Below are positions 1,460-9,416 of a stretch of DNA of 35,126 nucleotides, one piece after another. The DNA is from an uncultured Roseibacillus sp. (GTDB lineage Bacteria; Verrucomicrobiota; Verrucomicrobiia; Verrucomicrobiales; Akkermansiaceae). A program made the position numbers and the translations under genes. Within the stretch, counting starts at the first letter, position 1, and each line of letters begins with the position of its first letter. A model generated the notes under the pieces. It saw nothing but the letters and a program-made list of their open reading frames with translations. It did no database searches and was not told the DNA's origin. The stretch lies in assembly GCA_937949965.1 (NCBI GenBank), contig CALFBF010000112.1, positions 1 through 35,126 on the forward strand. Reading direction: 5' to 3'.

Positions 1460-2842
1460 CTACTCACCACTAAGCGCTTGGAGGAGTTTTTCGTGGATGC
1501 CGCCGAAGCCGCCGTTGCTGAGGACGGCAACGACGTCGCCTTCTTTTGCTTCTTGGCTAACCCAACTAACGATATCTTCCACGGACTCGATGCTGCGGAC
1601 ATCGCCGCCTGCGACGTTCGCGTCTTTGACTAACTGAGGGACATCGAGGAGTTCATCTTCAGCAATACGACCAGCCTCTAACACCGGAGGCACGACTGCT
1701 AAATCGGCATTGGCGAGGGCGGCGGCAAGGTTCCCTTTATGGGCTTCTTGACGCATGGTGTTAGAACGCGGTTCCAAAATCACGATCAAACGGCGATCAG
1801 GATAGCCTTCGCGTAGACCTTGGATGACGAGTTCTACTGCGGTGGGGTGATGGGCGAAGTCGTCAATAACGGTGACCCCACGTTCCTCGCCGCGCACTTC
1901 TTGGCGGCGCTTGATTCCTTGGAAAGAATTAAGTCCCTCGCGGATTTCCTCTGTGCTGAGACCAGCCTTGCGAGCGACCTCAATCGCCATGGCGGCATTG
2001 CGGACATTGAATTCGCCAGTCATCGGGAGTTGAAATTCTTCCCCATTGAGGCGGAAAGTAGTCGCACCATCACGGGCGACCATCTCACTAATCCGAACAT
2101 CACAATTCTCACCCAAGCCGACGAGCTGTATCGGACAGGGAGCTTCTGCTACGAGAGCGAGGGAGTTCTCGCAGTCGCCATTAAGAAAAGCCATTCCGTT
2201 GCTGGGTACGATCCGTAGGAGACGTGAGAAAGTGAGCAATACCGCATCGAGATCTTCATAGATATCAGCGTGGTCGAACTCGATATTATTAATGACCGCC
2301 ACCTCGGGAAGATAGTGAAGGAACTTGGAGCGTTTATCAAAGAAGGCGGTATCGTACTCATCCCCTTCGAGGACCACGAACTCGGAATCGGTGAACTCGG
2401 CACCACGCGCAAAGTTCTTGGGCACGCCACCGATCATGTGACTGGGGTCGCGGCCAGCGGACTTCAACAACCAAGCTACGAGAGAACTCGTAGTTGTCTT
2501 ACCATGCGTTCCCGCAATCACGAGATTGCGCCGTCCACGCAGAAAGTGTTCCTTGAGGACCTCGGGGAGAGATTGATAGAGTAACTTACGATCAAGCACT
2601 TCTTCAGCTTCCTCATTGCCGCGACTGACGGCATTACCCACGATGATCACTTCCGCATCTTCAGGGATATTGGAGCGACGATAGCCCTCGAAGAGAGGGA
2701 TCCCCTCTCCTTCGAGGAAAGTTGACATGGGGGGATAGACATTGGTATCCGAGCCAGTGACTTGGTAGCCCGCGCGTTTCATCGCTGCCGCTACTGACCC
2801 CATCGCCGTCCCACAAATGCCAATAAAATGAAAGTGCCTCAC
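1460..2842 (-). CDS. mpl: UDP-N-acetylmuramate:L-alanyl-gamma-D-glutamyl-meso-diaminopimelate ligase (murein tripeptide recycling)
   Basis: Cytoplasmic Mur-family ligase of 460 residues, the usual Mpl length. It joins recycled L-Ala-gamma-D-Glu-meso-DAP to UDP-MurNAc using ATP, returning cell-wall peptide to precursor synthesis. The N-terminal UDP-binding segment HFIGICGTAMGS and the following GSDTNVYPPMSTFLE are Mpl rather than MurC signatures. The ATP P-loop GTHGKTTTSS is at about 111-120, followed by IGGVPKNF and the central-domain motif LEGDEYDTAFFDKRSKF. DDFAHHP lies in the C-terminal third. The start is GTG at 2842; the next in-frame ATG would cut off the glycine-rich N-terminus. It is 84 bases downstream of miaB on the same strand, so co-transcription is possible. 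It implies DAP-type peptidoglycan turnover in this organism. Confidence 0.93.
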   Translation of the reverse strand: MRHFHFIGICGTAMGSVAAAMKRAGYQVTGSDTNVYPPMSTFLEGEGIPLFEGYRRSNIPEDAEVIIVGNAVSRGNEEAEEVLDRKLLYQSLPEVLKEHFLRGRRNLVIAGTHGKTTTSSLVAWLLKSAGRDPSHMIGGVPKNFARGAEFTDSEFVVLEGDEYDTAFFDKRSKFLHYLPEVAVINNIEFDHADIYEDLDAVLLTFSRLLRIVPSNGMAFLNGDCENSLALVAEAPCPIQLVGLGENCDVRISEMVARDGATTFRLNGEEFQLPMTGEFNVRNAAMAIEVARKAGLSTEEIREGLNSFQGIKRRQEVRGEERGVTVIDDFAHHPTAVELVIQGLREGYPDRRLIVILEPRSNTMRQEAHKGNLAAALANADLAVVPPVLEAGRIAEDELLDVPQLVKDANVAGGDVRSIESVEDIVSWVSQEAKEGDVVAVLSNGGFGGIHEKLLQALSGE

Positions 2843-2926: not shown

Positions 2927-4372
2927 TTAAGCGAAATCAGGGCGACCATAGAGGGTGTACCCAGTGGAATCCTCGACATGAACATCGAAGAGCTGTCCTG
3001 TCATGCGCTCGGCGTCACCGTCGAAGATGACGATCTTATTATGCACAGTGCGACCGCTGAGTCGTTGCTTATTGGTCTTACTCGGCCCCTCGCAGAGCAC
3101 CTGCTGACGAGTTCCTATTAGTTCGGCATTTTTAGCCTTAGTCAGTTCGCCTTGGATACGGAGAAGCTCTTGATTGCGTTCCTCCTTGACCCGCTCGGAC
3201 AACTGGCCCTCCATCTCAGCCGCTGGGGTGTCCTTGCGCTTGGAATAGCGGAAAATGAAGCTGTTATCGAATCCGATATGGCGCACACAGTCCACGGTAG
3301 CTTGGAAATCTTCCTCAGTCTCACCCGGGAAGCCCACGATGATGTCGGTCGTGATTGCCATGTCAGAACGAGCGGCCTTCATCTTCTCGCAAATCGCAAT
3401 GAACTTCTCGTTCTTATAAGGACGACGCATCGCCTTAAGAATACGATCACTGCCACTCTGCATCGGAAAGTGGATGTGAGAACACAGCTTGGGCAAATAG
3501 GTGAAAGCAGCTACCAAGTCATCGCGATAACCAATCGGATGCGGACTGGTGAAGCGGATACGCTCAATGCCTTCGACCTCATGAACAGCCTCTAACAACT
3601 GAACAAATGGTGACTTACCGTCTACCTTATCGAACTCTGTGCGCCCGTAGAGGTTCACGATTTGACCAAGGAGAGTGATTTCCTTAACGCCCTCGTCGCG
3701 GAGATTTTTCACCTCATCCACGATTTCATTAATCGGCCTTCCCCGCTCTTTGCCGCGCGTGTCGGGCACGATGCAGAAGCTACAACGCATGTTGCACCCC
3801 TGCATGATACTGACGAAAGCACTGGCTCGCTTCTCAGTAGAAGGAACGTGATCGCGAATGGTGTTCTGGCTGCCTGATTCTTCCTCGATATCGACGAGGC
3901 CTTCCGAGATGGGCTTCGGTTTGCCATTGCCGCCTAGAGGTCGAATACTGACTTCATCCTCGACCCGGCTCGTCAAAATCTCGGCTCCGACCTCATCCAT
4001 ACGGCCCACTAAGCGAGTCCGCAATATCCCATCAACGTGATGAAACACCTTGTGGTATTTCTGAGTCCCGACCACGACGTCCAGGTGTGGGATGCGTTCA
4101 AAGAGCTCTGCCCCCCGGCTCTGAGCCATACATCCCATGAAGCCGTAGACCACATGGGGACGCTCCTCGCGGTGCTTGCCCATCATGCCCATCTTCCCGA
4201 GAGCCTTCTGCTCCGCCTGATCACGCACCGAGCAGGTATTGACCAAGATGGCATCGGCATCGGTTTCATCACGGGTCAGAGTGTAGCCTCCATCCACGAA
4301 CTCACGAGCAACCTGCTCAGAGTCGCGTTCGTTCATTTGTCATCCGTAGGTCTTGATAAATACTTTCGGCAT
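2927..4372 (-). CDS. miaB: tRNA-2-methylthio-N6-dimethylallyladenosine synthase MiaB, probable selenoprotein (UGA at codon 11)
   Basis: Radical-SAM methylthiotransferase that converts i6A37 to ms2i6A37 in tRNAs reading UNN codons. Translation from ATG at 4372 gives MPKVFIKTYG, then TGA (4340-4342), then QMNERDSEQVA, an uninterrupted match to the family N-terminus except that the first conserved cysteine is TGA. The other two cluster cysteines are present, in NTCSVRDQ (about residue 47) and GFMGCMAQ (about 81). The SAM-cluster motif CNMRCSFC is at about 193-200, LLGQIVNLYG follows, and the last 60 or so residues fit a TRAM domain. The total is 481 codons, normal for MiaB. Starting at the ATG two codons past the TGA (4336) would drop the first cluster ligand and is unlikely to give an active enzyme. 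A SECIS-like hairpin follows the TGA. Alternatives are a sequencing error, a recent nonsense mutation, or readthrough. The MiaB identity is certain; recoding as selenocysteine is inferred. Confidence 0.9.
4295..4327 (-). promoter_or_regulatory. SECIS-like hairpin inside miaB, just downstream of the in-frame UGA
   Basis: On the miaB mRNA, the 13th to 45th bases after the UGA fold into a stem. CGCG pairs with CGUG (one G-U), ACUC pairs with GAGU, and GAGCA pairs with UGCUC. There are small bulges (U on the 5' side; GU and U on the 3' side) and the apical loop is GGU. The loop begins 26 bases after the UGA. Known bacterial SECIS elements lie within the coding region right behind the UGA, have a short apical loop with a G in its first two positions, and place it about 16-37 bases away. 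The E. coli fdhF element likewise has a GGU-containing loop and bulged U. All these criteria are met. I could not calculate folding energy or compare homologues. Confidence 0.65.
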
Positions 4373-4552
4373 GGTCGTGGGAGGCGAGGATGTAGCGTTT
4401 TTAGCCAAAAACTCAATACTTGAGCCACGAAATCGTCTCGTATGGTACGGAGAGCTCAAATCAAGCCACTTCTACCCTCTTTCACATTCTTAAAAATGGG
4501 ATATCTTCCCACTCTCCGTATACACTCACCCCCCATAGATCCCATCCCTCTG

Positions 4553-5449
4553 ATGCAACTCTTTGACAAACATACTAAAATACTCGTAGAATGTGCGATT
4601 GCTGAGCGTCTGCGACGCCTCCCAGAGGTAGAACTTCACCCCACCCTCTTCAACACCCCCCTCATCTACACTCCTGGGCCTGCCCTCGAGGCGATGAGCA
4701 CGATTTACCGAGAGTATATTGCCATTGCAGAGGGGGCTAGGCTTCCCCTCCTTCTCACCGCGCCTACTTGGCGGCTCGATGCCCACCGAGTGCGAGAGGC
4801 TGAGGTCCCTCTTACGATCAATAGTGACGCGGTACACTTCTTGAAAACTCTGGTTACGAACGCAACCCCTTCTGTCCCGGTCAAGGTAGGAGCGCTCATT
4901 GGCCCACAGAACGATTGCTACCGTCCCGACCTAGCCCCCGCACTGACGGTAGCTAAAGAACACCATCGCGACCAAATTGCGGAATTGGCTAAGACCGAAG
5001 CCGATTTTCTTCTCGCTCAGACCCTCCCCGCACTTCCCGAAGCCACTGCCATCGCACAACTGATCGTTGAAACAGGAAAGCCCAGCCTCATTAGTTTTTG
5101 CACTGGTCCTGATGGGCACGTTCTTGATGGGACCCCCCTACCCGAAGCGATGGCTACCATCGATGAGGCGACCTCTTCACCTCCATTGGGTTACTTCGTC
5201 AACTGCACTCACCCTCAGTTCCTGCTCGACCATTATCAACCTGGTGAACTGAGGCGCCTCATTGGCATTCAGGCAAACGGTTCGGCCAAGGATGTCCGTC
5301 GGCTTGATGGTTCATCACAAACCGAAGCCGACCCTCTCGCGCACTGGACCCATGCTATGCTATCACTCCATAACCAACATAAAGTCACTGCACTCGGAGG
5401 TTGTTGCGGCACAACTTCCGAGCACCTCTCGGCCTTGGCCAAAGGTTAG
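4553..5449 (+). CDS. Homocysteine (selenocysteine) S-methyltransferase family protein
   Basis: A 298-residue zinc-dependent methyltransferase of the S-methyl_trans family (MmuM/BhmT-like), which moves a methyl group from S-methylmethionine, SAM or a related donor to homocysteine, or selenocysteine in some members. The zinc ligands are visible: the cysteine of NCTHP in the middle of the barrel and the double cysteine of GGCCGTT near the C-terminus. GPQNDCYRP and ADFLLAQTLPAL match the family's barrel strands. The start at ATG 4553 is chosen because MQLFDKHTKILVECA aligns with family N-termini; the frame is open upstream to 4442 but that stretch has no family character. It is divergent from miaB, with about 180 bases between the two starts. 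The actual methyl donor and acceptor cannot be told from sequence. Confidence 0.8.
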   Translation: MQLFDKHTKILVECAIAERLRRLPEVELHPTLFNTPLIYTPGPALEAMSTIYREYIAIAEGARLPLLLTAPTWRLDAHRVREAEVPLTINSDAVHFLKTLVTNATPSVPVKVGALIGPQNDCYRPDLAPALTVAKEHHRDQIAELAKTEADFLLAQTLPALPEATAIAQLIVETGKPSLISFCTGPDGHVLDGTPLPEAMATIDEATSSPPLGYFVNCTHPQFLLDHYQPGELRRLIGIQANGSAKDVRRLDGSSQTEADPLAHWTHAMLSLHNQHKVTALGGCCGTTSEHLSALAKG

Positions 5450-5636
5450 TGAGAAACTTACAAAAGAATCCCACTGTGACTTCCTCCTTCTCTTTTTTGC
5501 TAACACTTGGACTCGAACATATTTCCGAAAATGAATTCTGAAATCCCGCCCTCCTTTCCCGCCCTTTAGCGTAGAAACGGAGTAAGGACGGGCACCAGCC
5601 TTGCCTCCCCTCGCATCACTCAATAGTCTATTAGTG

Positions 5637-6527
5637 ATGGCCCCTCTCGTGGACAGCTTCATCCTCTATCTCGCCACCGAGCGAGGACTCTCCCCTGCCT
5701 ATCAACTCTCGGTGCGGCAGTCTCTCGACGGCTTTATCAAGTGGGCAACCGCCCAAGGGCTAACAGAACCTACCAACTGCACCACTGACACCCTCACGCG
5801 CTATCTCTCCAGTCGACGTAAGAGTGGACTCTCGGCTTCGTCACAACGGGTGCTCGTCGTCCACCTCAAGATTTTCTTCCGCTTCCTCACCACTCGTCAT
5901 GGGCTCGCCCACGATCCGGCGGAATCTCTCCTCACACCGAAGGAGCCCGCCAAACTCCCCAACACCTTCTCTGCCGACCAGTTAGAACAACTCCTGAACT
6001 CCATCGATATCACCAAGCCTCTCGGTAAACGTGATCTCGCTGTGATGGAGCTATTCTACTCTTCAGGATTACGGCTCTCTGAGCTCTGTAATGCCCGGCT
6101 AGAACACCTCGACGAAGACGAAGCTATTCTACGCGTGACTGGTAAGGGTAACAAAACCCGCATCGTCCCTGTCGGTGAGCGAGCCCTGCAAGCGCTCACC
6201 CGCTACACCACCAACGAGCGACCAGAGTTAGTCAAAACTAGTAAAACCTCTTCTCATATTTTTCTCTCCATTCGTGGAGGAGCGCTCTCTCCGGACCGCG
6301 TTCGTCAAATTGTAAAAAAACGAGCCGAACAAGCAGGACTTCCCCAAAAAATTTACCCCCACCTCCTCCGTCACTCCTTCGCCACCCATCTGCTAGAAGG
6401 CGGAGCTGACCTTCGGGTCATCCAAGAACTCCTCGGACACGCTGATATCGCGACTACACAGATCTACACCCATCTCGATCAGAAGCACTTGATCGCAACC
6501 CATCAGAACCACCATCCGAGGGCTTAA
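5637..6527 (+). CDS. xerD: Site-specific tyrosine recombinase, XerD type
   Basis: A 296-residue integrase-family recombinase with an N-terminal SAM-like DNA-binding domain (about 1-90) and a C-terminal catalytic domain. The catalytic residues are Arg146 (SSGLRLSEL), Lys170 (TGKGNKTR), His242 and Arg245 (HLLRH), His268 (LGHADI) and nucleophile Tyr277 (QIYTH). Their spacing equals E. coli XerD (R148, K172, H244, R247, H270, Y279) shifted by two, and the total length is nearly the same, so it is likely XerD rather than XerC. XerC/XerD resolve chromosome dimers at dif during division. The ATG at 5637 is preferred over an upstream TTG at 5601 because the sequence between does not resemble the family. 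No phage or integron genes adjoin it, which favours the housekeeping role. Confidence 0.88.
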   Translation: MAPLVDSFILYLATERGLSPAYQLSVRQSLDGFIKWATAQGLTEPTNCTTDTLTRYLSSRRKSGLSASSQRVLVVHLKIFFRFLTTRHGLAHDPAESLLTPKEPAKLPNTFSADQLEQLLNSIDITKPLGKRDLAVMELFYSSGLRLSELCNARLEHLDEDEAILRVTGKGNKTRIVPVGERALQALTRYTTNERPELVKTSKTSSHIFLSIRGGALSPDRVRQIVKKRAEQAGLPQKIYPHLLRHSFATHLLEGGADLRVIQELLGHADIATTQIYTHLDQKHLIATHQNHHPRA

Positions 6528-6596: not shown

Positions 6597-7475
6597 TCAA
6601 GACTCGAGACTCGATGAAGAATCTCGCCACCGTTGCGTCACTTCTTGATAAGTCTCGATCCTTCGATCACGAAAAAAAGGCCACCACCGGCGATGTTCCT
6701 CCAGAGCTGCAAGATCACAACTCCACCTCAAAATCTCAGTCTCGTCATCAGAAGCCTTCGCGACAACACGCCCCATGAAATCACTCACAAAACTCTGTCC
6801 CCAAAATCGAGTCTTCTCCTCCTCGCCAACACGGTTAACGGCAGCTAGGTAGCAACTATTGGCGACTGCATGACCACACTGAACCGTCTCCCAAGCATGA
6901 TGCTGTCTAGAACGCAGCTCTTCCTTCTCATCAGCTAACCAGCCAATCGCAGTGGGGTAAAACAGGATCTCGGCTCCAGCGAGAGCCATGAGGCGAGCGG
7001 CTTCGGGGAACCATTGATCCCAACAAATAAGGACTCCCACTTTCCCAAACTGAGTCTTCCAAATAGGGTATCCTAAATCCCCGGGAGTGAAGTAAAACTT
7101 CTCTTCAAAGCCTGGGTCTTGCGGAATATGATTCTTGCGATAACGACCCAAAAGGCTGCCATCAGCGTCGATAATAACCGCCGAATTGTGATAAATCCCA
7201 GTTGCTCTTTTCTCGAACAAAGCGGCAATGATGACGACACCACAGAGCGCAGCCACTTCTTGCAAAGATTCAGTCGTCGGCCCCGGAATACGTTCTGCCA
7301 AATCAAAGGCTGCGGGATCTTCCTTCTGACAAAAATAGGCGGTGGTGAAGAGCTCTTGAGTACAGATAATCTGAGCCCCTTCAGCGGCAGCTTCACAAAT
7401 GCGAGCAACCGTCCAATCGAGATTAGCAATATGCGAACCGAAGTCTTTTCCTTGAATGAGTGCAATCTCAGTCAT
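6597..7475 (-). CDS. aguB: N-carbamoylputrescine amidase (nitrilase superfamily)
   Basis: A 292-residue carbon-nitrogen hydrolase. The catalytic triad is Glu41 (TQELF), Lys114 (YRKNHIP) and Cys151 (ICWDQWFPEAAR). The CWDQWFPE block and the RKNHIPQDPGFEEKFYF stretch are typical of AguB, which hydrolyses N-carbamoylputrescine to putrescine in the agmatine route of polyamine synthesis. The partner agmatine deiminase AguA is not in the window. It ends with TGA, showing that TGA works as a stop in this genome. It lies 109 bases downstream of the sugar transferase gene on the same strand, with a terminator between, so it is probably transcribed separately. A general omega-amidase is a less likely alternative. 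Confidence 0.88.
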   Translation of the reverse strand: MTEIALIQGKDFGSHIANLDWTVARICEAAAEGAQIICTQELFTTAYFCQKEDPAAFDLAERIPGPTTESLQEVAALCGVVIIAALFEKRATGIYHNSAVIIDADGSLLGRYRKNHIPQDPGFEEKFYFTPGDLGYPIWKTQFGKVGVLICWDQWFPEAARLMALAGAEILFYPTAIGWLADEKEELRSRQHHAWETVQCGHAVANSCYLAAVNRVGEEEKTRFWGQSFVSDFMGRVVAKASDDETEILRWSCDLAALEEHRRWWPFFRDRRIETYQEVTQRWRDSSSSLES

Positions 7476-7584: not shown

Positions 7585-9078
7585 TTAGCAAGCGCCACTG
7601 CGCTTAAAGAAAGTAAGAGCCATGATGCGAAGGTCCCATAGGAAATTCCAGTTCTCCATGTAGTGTAGGTCGAACTTTACCCGAGTGGTAAGACAGGTAT
7701 CACCGCGAAGACCATTGATTTGAGCCCAACCGGTGAGACCTGGCTTAATGTTGTGACGGAGATTGTAATGAGGAATCTCTTCCTTGAAGTCGTGGATGAG
7801 TTCTGGCCGCTCGGGACGAGGTCCCACAAGGCTCATCTCTCCGCGAAGAACATTGAAAAATTGGGGAAGTTCATCAATATTCCAACGACGCATAAGGGCT
7901 CCTACCTTGAGGCAACGAGGATCATCCTTAACAGTCCAACCAGGTCCACCGGTAGACTCCGCATCGAGCTTCATGCTGCGGATCTTGAGAATCTCAAAGG
8001 GCTTGCCATCCTGACCGAGACGAACTTGCTTATACACAAGGGGACCCTTGGATTCCATTCTAACAAGGGCCATGAACAATCCGATAACAGGACCAAAGAT
8101 AGCCAAACCAGCCAATGCACCTATGATATCGAACGTCCGCTTGGCAATACTGTTGAAGGCATGGTGGAGAGGCAGAGTCCCCACACCGAGGAGAGGCATT
8201 CCATTGACGTTCTCTAACTTAAGACTAGAGACGAGAACCTGGAAGCAACTCGGAACCAGTTTGAAATCGATGAACTCGCGCCCACAAATCTCGGAGACCT
8301 CCATGAGGGCTGCACGGTCAGCAGCTCCATTGACCGCAATGAGCATATCCGCATCTTCCTTTCTTAGCGAAGTGCGAAGGTCAGCAAAGGAACCTAAGAT
8401 TGGGACCTCTTGAGGAGGTTCTTCTTCAAAGTTACCATCCTGTGGTTTGATCACACCAGCGACTTCGATTAGATCAACATCTCCCCCGGACATCCGGTTC
8501 ACGGCAGAGGCACACTCCTCGTTCCAGCCTAAAAAAACGACCTTCTGGCGCAGTGCCTTGCCCCAAGAGAACGAGCGTAAAACGCTATAGAAAACGTAAC
8601 GCCATCCCAAGAGAGTCACCATTGCAATGTTACCAGCCACAATACAGTAAATCCGTGAAATCGCAGGATCGAGCTTGAGGACCAGAGCCAAGGAGAGGAA
8701 AAGAACAGACCAGGACACACACACTTGGAAAACAGCTTTGGCCATGGGCCGAAAAGTCAGAAATTTCTTGGGATCATAAAGCCGATAGTTAATCGCCAAG
8801 GCAACCATCACAACAGTACCAAAAACAAGGTGCCCACCGTAGCTTTGTAAGGTCAGATTAAAATCTGCGACTCCAACTGTGCCTAAGAAAGTCTCGAAAC
8901 GCACGAAGTAACCAACGCAAAGAGCTATTACAATGGCAACGAGATCACCCATGAAGCTGGTAACCACCATCTTCTGATGAACAAGGCCCGGGCGCTTACG
9001 AGCACGGAGTTCATACTGGGGTTTCTCCTCGACTTCGAGGGGATGTCCCTCAAGCGGGACGGTTTTAGCAGGCTTCAT
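7585..9078 (-). CDS. Undecaprenyl-phosphate sugar phosphotransferase (exopolysaccharide initiation, WcaJ-like)
   Basis: A 497-residue membrane protein of the polyprenyl glycosylphosphotransferase family. It loads the first sugar phosphate onto undecaprenyl phosphate to begin exopolysaccharide or capsule repeat units. Four hydrophobic segments occupy the first 180 or so residues (for example GDLVAIVIALCVGYFV and AVFQVCVSWSVLFLSLALVL). A nucleotide-binding-like middle domain follows (KVVFLGWNEECASAV). Then comes the transferase domain with a membrane hairpin (FDIIGALAGLAIFGPVIGLF), the conserved KIRSM and the signature DELPQFFNVLRGEMSLVGPRP. The start at ATG 9078 is favoured over a TTG at 9108. 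No glycosyltransferases or export genes adjoin it, so it is either an orphan initiator or serves a cluster elsewhere. The sugar cannot be predicted. Confidence 0.87.
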   Translation of the reverse strand: MKPAKTVPLEGHPLEVEEKPQYELRARKRPGLVHQKMVVTSFMGDLVAIVIALCVGYFVRFETFLGTVGVADFNLTLQSYGGHLVFGTVVMVALAINYRLYDPKKFLTFRPMAKAVFQVCVSWSVLFLSLALVLKLDPAISRIYCIVAGNIAMVTLLGWRYVFYSVLRSFSWGKALRQKVVFLGWNEECASAVNRMSGGDVDLIEVAGVIKPQDGNFEEEPPQEVPILGSFADLRTSLRKEDADMLIAVNGAADRAALMEVSEICGREFIDFKLVPSCFQVLVSSLKLENVNGMPLLGVGTLPLHHAFNSIAKRTFDIIGALAGLAIFGPVIGLFMALVRMESKGPLVYKQVRLGQDGKPFEILKIRSMKLDAESTGGPGWTVKDDPRCLKVGALMRRWNIDELPQFFNVLRGEMSLVGPRPERPELIHDFKEEIPHYNLRHNIKPGLTGWAQINGLRGDTCLTTRVKFDLHYMENWNFLWDLRIMALTFFKRSGAC

Positions 9079-9416
9079 AACAAAGGACGGAACAAGGGGG
9101 GTGAACAAAGGGGGGGCGGCGGTTTAGAACAAAGTTTCGTTCGAAAAGCCACAAAGGATTTATAAAAATTATCGAGAAAGGGAAGTAGTTTTTACAAATT
9201 TTTAATGAAATAAAGCTATTATCTTACTTTTATTAACAATAAATTTTCATTGTTCACTAGGAAAAACGAGTCACTATTTGACCTTTAATAACAACTCAAA
9301 TGACTTGTAACCAACCAGTTAAACCCTTGATTAAAAAAATCACGAACCTGAACGATTCAGCAGATACGTAATTGCGCTTCAATAAATACCCAATTGCGTC
9401 AAATATTTTTTCTTAG
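9079..9416. other. AT-rich intergenic stretch between recQ and the sugar transferase gene
   Basis: About 340 bases without a credible gene, much richer in A and T than the flanking genes. It holds the candidate promoter for the sugar transferase gene. It also has a pair of direct repeats AATTGCG (9370-9376 and 9392-9398) 22 bases apart start to start, about two helical turns, near the recQ end. No clear hairpin terminator for recQ is visible. Confidence 0.6.
9168..9197 (-). promoter_or_regulatory. Candidate sigma-70 promoter for the sugar transferase gene
   Basis: TTGTAA (9192-9197) and GATAAT (9168-9173) on the minus strand are separated by 18 bases, in an AT-rich stretch, with the gene start about 90 bases downstream. 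Hexamers match the consensus at 4 and 5 of 6 positions. Chance matches are common in such AT-rich DNA. Confidence 0.4.

Follow-up and report, generated by a model that had tools for sequence, protein, structure and literature searches.

The miaB gene of an uncultured Roseibacillus sp., found on a 35,126-nucleotide stretch of contig CALFBF010000112.1 (hereafter the window), very probably encodes a selenoprotein, in which the UGA at codon 11 would be decoded as selenocysteine (Sec) by SelB and Sec-tRNA-Sec with the help of a SECIS hairpin. The in-frame TGA, its conservation in related genomes, the hairpin following it and the co-occurrence of TGA with the Sec machinery are all directly visible in the sequences, and it is from these that we infer Sec insertion at codon 11 of MiaB.

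The miaB gene of the window

Read on the minus strand, the gene begins with the ATG at 4372..4370 and runs as MPKVFIKTYG into the TGA at 4342..4340, after which the frame continues with QMNERDSEQVAREF and remains open for 470 codons until the TAA at 2929..2927 (Table 1). The initial annotation of this DNA had described a TGA exactly at the first cluster cysteine of MiaB, placed between intact flanks and followed by an undamaged gene of 470 codons, and both parts of this description hold. With C substituted at the TGA position before protein profile searches, the product obtained 450.2 bits over its full length against the NCBIfam model TIGR01574 (curated cut-off 355.3) and 454 bits against the parent model TIGR00089, with the UPF0004, radical SAM and TRAM domains all present. 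According to PMC5352715, the auxiliary-cluster ligands of methylthiotransferases follow the pattern C-X35-36-C-X32-33-C and their radical SAM motif is C-X3-C-X2-C; both are matched by the window protein (U11-X35-C47-X33-C81 and C193-X3-C197-X2-C200), except for the predicted Sec codon in place of Cys at position 11. Alignment to the solved MiaB structure 7mjv, which covers residues 3-106 and 165-477 as separate stretches, places the TGA at the Cys of TYGCQMN. A single MiaB match at E 1e-60 or better was found in the genome to which the window belongs (G000).

Table 1. Positions of the features discussed, numbered from the first nucleotide of the window
Feature	Position	Strand	Remarks
Open frame truncated at the end of the contig	1-798	minus	contains RYYDPVTGRWPSRDPIG, presumably an RHS-repeat core motif
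mpl	1460-2842		NCBIfam
miaB coding sequence	2927..4372	minus	481 residues with predicted Sec at codon 11; stop TAA; TIGR01574, UPF0004 + radical SAM + TRAM
SECIS-type hairpin, apical part	4304..4320	minus	CUGAGC-AGGUU-GCUCGU, loop AGGUU, numbered 23-39 relative to the U of UGA
In-frame ATG at codon 13, alternative start	4334..4336	minus	gene-finder choice (469-aa ORF, 2927..4336); rejected as main start
In-frame TGA, predicted Sec codon (U11)	4340..4342	minus	first cysteine of the auxiliary-cluster motif C-X35-C-X33-C
Codons 1-10, MPKVFIKTYG, 5' of UGA	4343..4372	minus	conserved peptide from varied DNA in 56 Sec forms
Homocysteine S-methyltransferase-like gene	4442-5449	divergent	NCBIfam, far below cut-off
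XerC/D-type recombinase	5601-6527		NCBIfam
aguB-like amidase	6597-7475		NCBIfam, below cut-off
Polyprenyl glycosylphosphotransferase	7585-9108		NCBIfam

The C following the TGA, which had been likened to that in fdhF, is indeed there but says little as evidence, because the conserved Gln codon fixes this base. The statement that TGA serves as a stop elsewhere in the window is in turn correct: the aguB-like neighbour is terminated by TGA at its normal place, as read from the stop itself and from a profile match that reaches the gene end.

Translation could instead start at the ATG lying two codons past the TGA, which would yield a 469-aa MiaB without its first cluster ligand and reduce the upstream codons to a remnant. 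Such an ATG does exist and is the start selected by a standard ORF finder; it is also conserved, though to the same extent as in Cys forms, in which it encodes the Met of QMN (and Met was required by the search pattern). We nevertheless regard this start as highly improbable. Across 56 Sec genes, the ten codons 5' of the TGA occur as 41 distinct DNA sequences that translate into only 8 different peptides, and therefore appear to be selected as translated protein; all 56 genes retain the other five cluster cysteines. Against an internal start speak, in addition, the near confinement of the TGA to genomes with Sec machinery and the selection acting on the hairpin in TGA forms, both described below.

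Distribution of the TGA codon

The family survey comprised 260 genomes, with a stricter subset of 172 that had a completeness of 90% or more and a contamination of 5% or less. A MiaB motif with TGN at the codon in question was present in 245 of the 260 genomes (171 of the 172), and the codon was TGA in 59 (33 of the stricter subset), representing 7 of 16 genera. Among the relatives listed, the site is occupied by TGA, TGC or TGT and by no other codon; the comparison of close homologues proposed at the outset thus came out in favour of the Sec reading. Each of the 59 TGA genomes contains the TGN motif a single time and therefore carries no second, Cys-encoding copy with such a motif.

TGA is found almost solely alongside markers of Sec decoding. 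tRNA-Sec was detected at E 1e-9 or better in 49 of the 260 genomes, a looser search of 24 adding two TGA genomes, and selA at E 1e-60 or better in 70, 69 of them above the curated cut-off. At least one of the two markers was found in 56 of the 59 TGA genomes as against 13 of the 186 with another TGN codon (Fisher 1e-38, a value that ignores shared descent), and in 4 of the 15 genomes without the MiaB motif. One of the 56 (G354) is counted solely for an incomplete selA that scores below the curated cut-off, and the three TGA genomes in which neither tRNA-Sec nor selA was found (G361, G378 and G404) are each 83-86% complete.

A species-wide pattern scan of genome contigs gave 64 matches, of which 59 are the same miaB gene within one group, reading MPKVFIKTYG-U-QMNERDSEQ or near variants; 58 of these are assigned by their record titles to Verrucomicrobiota (Akkermansiaceae, Rubritalea, Roseibacillus and the like). 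A natural stop follows 442-476 codons past the U in 49 of the group loci, the other 10 running beyond the end of the stretch. With 59 of the 260 family genomes and 59 of the 64 scan matches sharing the site, the TGA at codon 11 is not a chance occurrence, although neither count of 59 is independent of the other, since most of the genomes are probably the same. Two cultured isolates are among the matches, Rubritalea marina DSM 17716 (L104) and R. profundi (L070), and selA was found in both. One further locus (L091), from a long-branch Verrucomicrobia MAG, has both the miaB TGA and the hairpin; it adjoins a genome of another family in the tree and perhaps lies outside the family.

The remaining five TGA matches (L050, L063, L069, L075 and L084) come from Omnitrophota, two Elusimicrobia, Hyphomicrobiales and Terriglobus, and were rejected as further cases of Sec-MiaB: selA is absent from all five genomes and the AGGU hairpin from all five loci, which makes them useful negatives. 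The frame meets a stop after 9 codons in L050, 23 in L063 and 48 in L075; it stays open for 467 codons in L069 and 428 in L084. Both Elusimicrobia have the TGA and the early loss of frame in common.

These data also bear on the suggestion that the TGA of the window results from faulty sequencing or assembly, or from a nonsense mutation newly arisen in this single genome. The TGC found at the codon in three same-genus relatives of G000 would fit such an error, as would the existence of isolated TGA matches in other groups, but the latter are precisely the five odd loci without selA and without the AGGU hairpin, and the TGA is common to 59 family genomes, two isolates included, by which a one-off error is refuted for the family. 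For the window itself, G000 retains the Sec-type codons GAG CAG GTT GCT, as opposed to the GAG CAA GTG GCT that accompanies TGC in the same-genus genomes G091 and G201, and the chance of an error here is in our estimation negligible.

Selenocysteine machinery in the host genome and its relatives

The G000 assembly (2.73 Mb in 166 contigs, 90.6% complete) contains a tRNA-Sec scoring 63.9 bits against a gathering score of 47, named tRNA-SeC by ARAGORN with the anticodon TCA (UCA in RNA), together with selB (340.9 bits) and selA (460 bits). A search of this incomplete assembly found no full-length selD. The best selD match there (L048, 56.8 bits) covers only part of the profile, positions 35-177, and was rejected as selD; the open frame of L048 presumably resembles a ThiL-type kinase. 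The search for sel genes proposed in the initial annotation thus succeeded for tRNA-Sec with the UCA anticodon, selA and selB, and fell short for full selD.

Among the 16 related genomes searched, selD was above cut-off in 14, including all three same-genus genomes, and was not found in G000 and G236, the two exceptions, where it has likely been lost in assembly. Each of the 14 selD matches contains one TGA, and in the 13 SelD sequences read of these 14 the U sits in SC(A/G)GUASKL, with GCAGGU downstream of the UGA in 9 of the 13, GCAAGU in 3 and GCACGU in 1. SelD itself (loci L203-L216) is thus a UGA protein in genomes related to the window. As for the tRNA-Sec loci, GGTCTTCAAAACC occurs in 20 of 30, the other 10 differing from the exact string, and a second, weaker tRNA-Sec-like match (~48 bits) is present in two same-genus genomes (G088:C5:108059-108144 and G091:C4:171256-171339).

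The missing selD of the G000 assembly is what would favour a reading of the UGA as Cys or Trp, by variant charging of tRNA-Sec or by a suppressor. Against this stand the presence of selA and selB in G000, of selD in 14 of the 16 related genomes searched, and the use of TGA as the ordinary stop of the adjoining aguB-like gene, and we consider insertion of either amino acid very unlikely.

A SECIS-type hairpin downstream of the UGA

The hairpin of the window pairs 5 of its 6 stem positions, C23 and U39 being unpaired. Its conservation was assessed by comparing 56 distinct Sec genes with 55 Cys genes, 30 of the latter from genus g2. Over 202 windows along the 56 Sec genes, no part of the gene varies less in its synonymous codons than codons +7 to +11, counted from the U; in the 55 Cys genes these same codons are not among the eight lowest of 131 windows. 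Sec genes have GAG at +8 and CAG at +9 without exception (56/56 each) and GTT at +10 in 52, as compared to GAA 33 and GAG 21 at +8, CAA 17 and CAG 38 at +9, and only 4 GTT at +10 in Cys genes. Correspondingly, GAGCAGGTTGC is present in 52 of the 56 Sec genes vs 3 of the 55 Cys genes.

Because g2 supplies 30 of the 55 Cys genes, the comparison was repeated without this genus. In the 25 Cys genes left, codon +8 is GAA in 13 and GAG in 11, codon +10 is GTC in 15, GTG in 7 and GTT in 3, and GAGCAGGTTGC occurs in 2. The stem formed by positions 23-28 and 34-39 has six pairs in 38 Sec genes and five in the other 18; no Cys gene has six pairs and 7 have five, all of them outside g2. Against redraws of synonymous codons, the mean folding z is -2.2 for Sec genes and -0.64 for all Cys genes, a contrast which narrows to -2.2 vs -1.18 once g2 is dropped. 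Among 31 control offsets, computed on the first 25 Sec genes with 40 draws each, the lowest z is -0.94.

Only part of the stem is recovered by RNAalifold in the Sec set, at -7.04 kcal/mol vs -1.36 for Cys. Taken alone, the window sequence folds no more than modestly better than its shuffles, with z from -0.64 to -2.43 depending on length. Covariation at pair 24-38 (TA 20, TG 15, CG 15 and CA 6 in Sec genes) was set aside as SECIS evidence, being too weak, with few compensatory changes. A bacterial SECIS element is defined, in PMC1088965, as a hairpin shortly 3' of the UGA with a G within a small apical loop; the candidate agrees with this definition through conservation and pairing, and less clearly so through single-sequence folding energy.

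On the 5' side of the UGA, the Gly codon is GGA in 34 and GGG in 22 of the 56 Sec genes, and GGA, GGT or GGC in Cys genes. A purine immediately precedes the UGA in all 56 Sec genes.

Evolution of the Sec and Cys forms

In a quickly built tree of 111 MiaB genes, with the U/C residue masked, the Sec/Cys label requires 10 changes, at least 7 of them forced by well-supported (starred) branches, compared with a mean of 37 for shuffled labels; the tree gives no direction for these changes. Three Cys genes still have GAGCAGGTTGC, namely L018 (G223), L219 (G221) and L126 (G242). Both G223 and G221 have selA, the former also tRNA-Sec, and to judge from sequence L018 and L219 are apparently recent Sec-to-Cys changes with a fossil SECIS hairpin; G242 has neither marker, and in L126 the string is probably there by chance. 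PMC1794560 reports hairpin remnants after Sec-to-Cys changes in other selenoproteins. Residues separating Sec from Cys forms were also considered as a Sec signature and set aside, their counts appearing to track the split between g2 and the rest.

Proposed mechanism and significance

In the mechanism that we propose, the SECIS hairpin with its AGGUU loop, lying inside the coding sequence 7 to 12 codons 3' of the UGA, would allow SelB and Sec-tRNA-Sec to decode the UGA at codon 11, giving a full-length MiaB in which selenocysteine replaces cysteine as the first auxiliary-cluster ligand. By homology, this Sec-MiaB would turn i6A37 into ms2i6A37 in tRNAs, and the selenolate would be among the three protein ligands that bind the sulfur-carrying auxiliary [4Fe-4S] cluster. 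As set out in PMC5372745, MiaB, in which three Cys ligate the auxiliary cluster, adds a methylthio group at C2 of i6A37, and the source of the sulfur has been debated between the cluster itself and sulfide on its free iron. The benefit of Sec is a matter of speculation, and may perhaps lie in redox tuning of the cluster or in easier recovery from oxidation.

The anticodon loop of the G000 tRNA-Sec, CUUCAAA, has A36-A37-A38, the target context of MiaA/MiaB, and for this reason MiaB could modify the very tRNA-Sec that reads its own UGA. A feedback loop of this kind, with the selenolate as natural ligand of the auxiliary cluster and A37 hypermodification of tRNA dependent on selenium, is a tentative and rather unlikely proposal; were it true, selenium supply, Sec decoding and tRNA modification would control one another.

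If Sec-MiaB itself is real, selenium becomes linked to tRNA hypermodification, and a methylthiotransferase joins the selenoproteins, with Sec on a cluster whose exact role in sulfur transfer has been under debate (PMC5372745). Close Sec and Cys homologues, found even within one genus, constitute a natural experiment on the effect of selenium on the cluster. There is also a practical side, as ORF finders without Sec decoding truncate MiaB at its N-terminus across dozens of species, the window being an example.

Comparison with known systems

Neither MiaB nor any methylthiotransferase appears in Table 1 of a May 2026 review listing 119 prokaryotic selenoprotein families and subfamilies (PMC13188914), and the strings 'miab' and 'methylthio' have 0 occurrences in its text, as in PMC12013277, PMC9312934, PMC2398784, PMC1088965 and PMC1794560. 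Literature searches over the titles and abstract openings listed and over selected passages, with subscription papers and preprints mostly outside their scope, did not find a Sec form of MiaB, and the remark in the initial annotation on the lack of a described form is in line with these searches and with the review table. Its further remark, that selenium on a sacrificial cluster would be chemically new, may hold for a methylthiotransferase and is too strong for Fe-S proteins at large, because HdrA, an Fe-S protein, is given as an experimentally verified selenoprotein in PMC13188914.

Together with HdrA, the 'radical SAM domain protein' TIGR04167 and TrsS (NF045646) resemble the window protein in being radical SAM or Fe-S proteins with Sec; unlike MiaB, none of the three is a methylthiotransferase, to judge from the names and domain identifiers that the table of PMC13188914 gives for them. 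The Sec form of SelD is similar in that it occurs in related genomes, has an in-frame UGA near the N-terminus and shows a similar apical hairpin in most of the sequences read. It differs in being another protein, and one already known as a selenoprotein family from PMC13188914; for SelD, changes from Sec to Cys are described in PMC1794560. MiaB as known from TIGR01574 and 7mjv shares with the window protein its domain order, the other cluster cysteines and its length, and differs from it in that the window gene encodes the first auxiliary ligand by TGA, followed by a SECIS-type hairpin.
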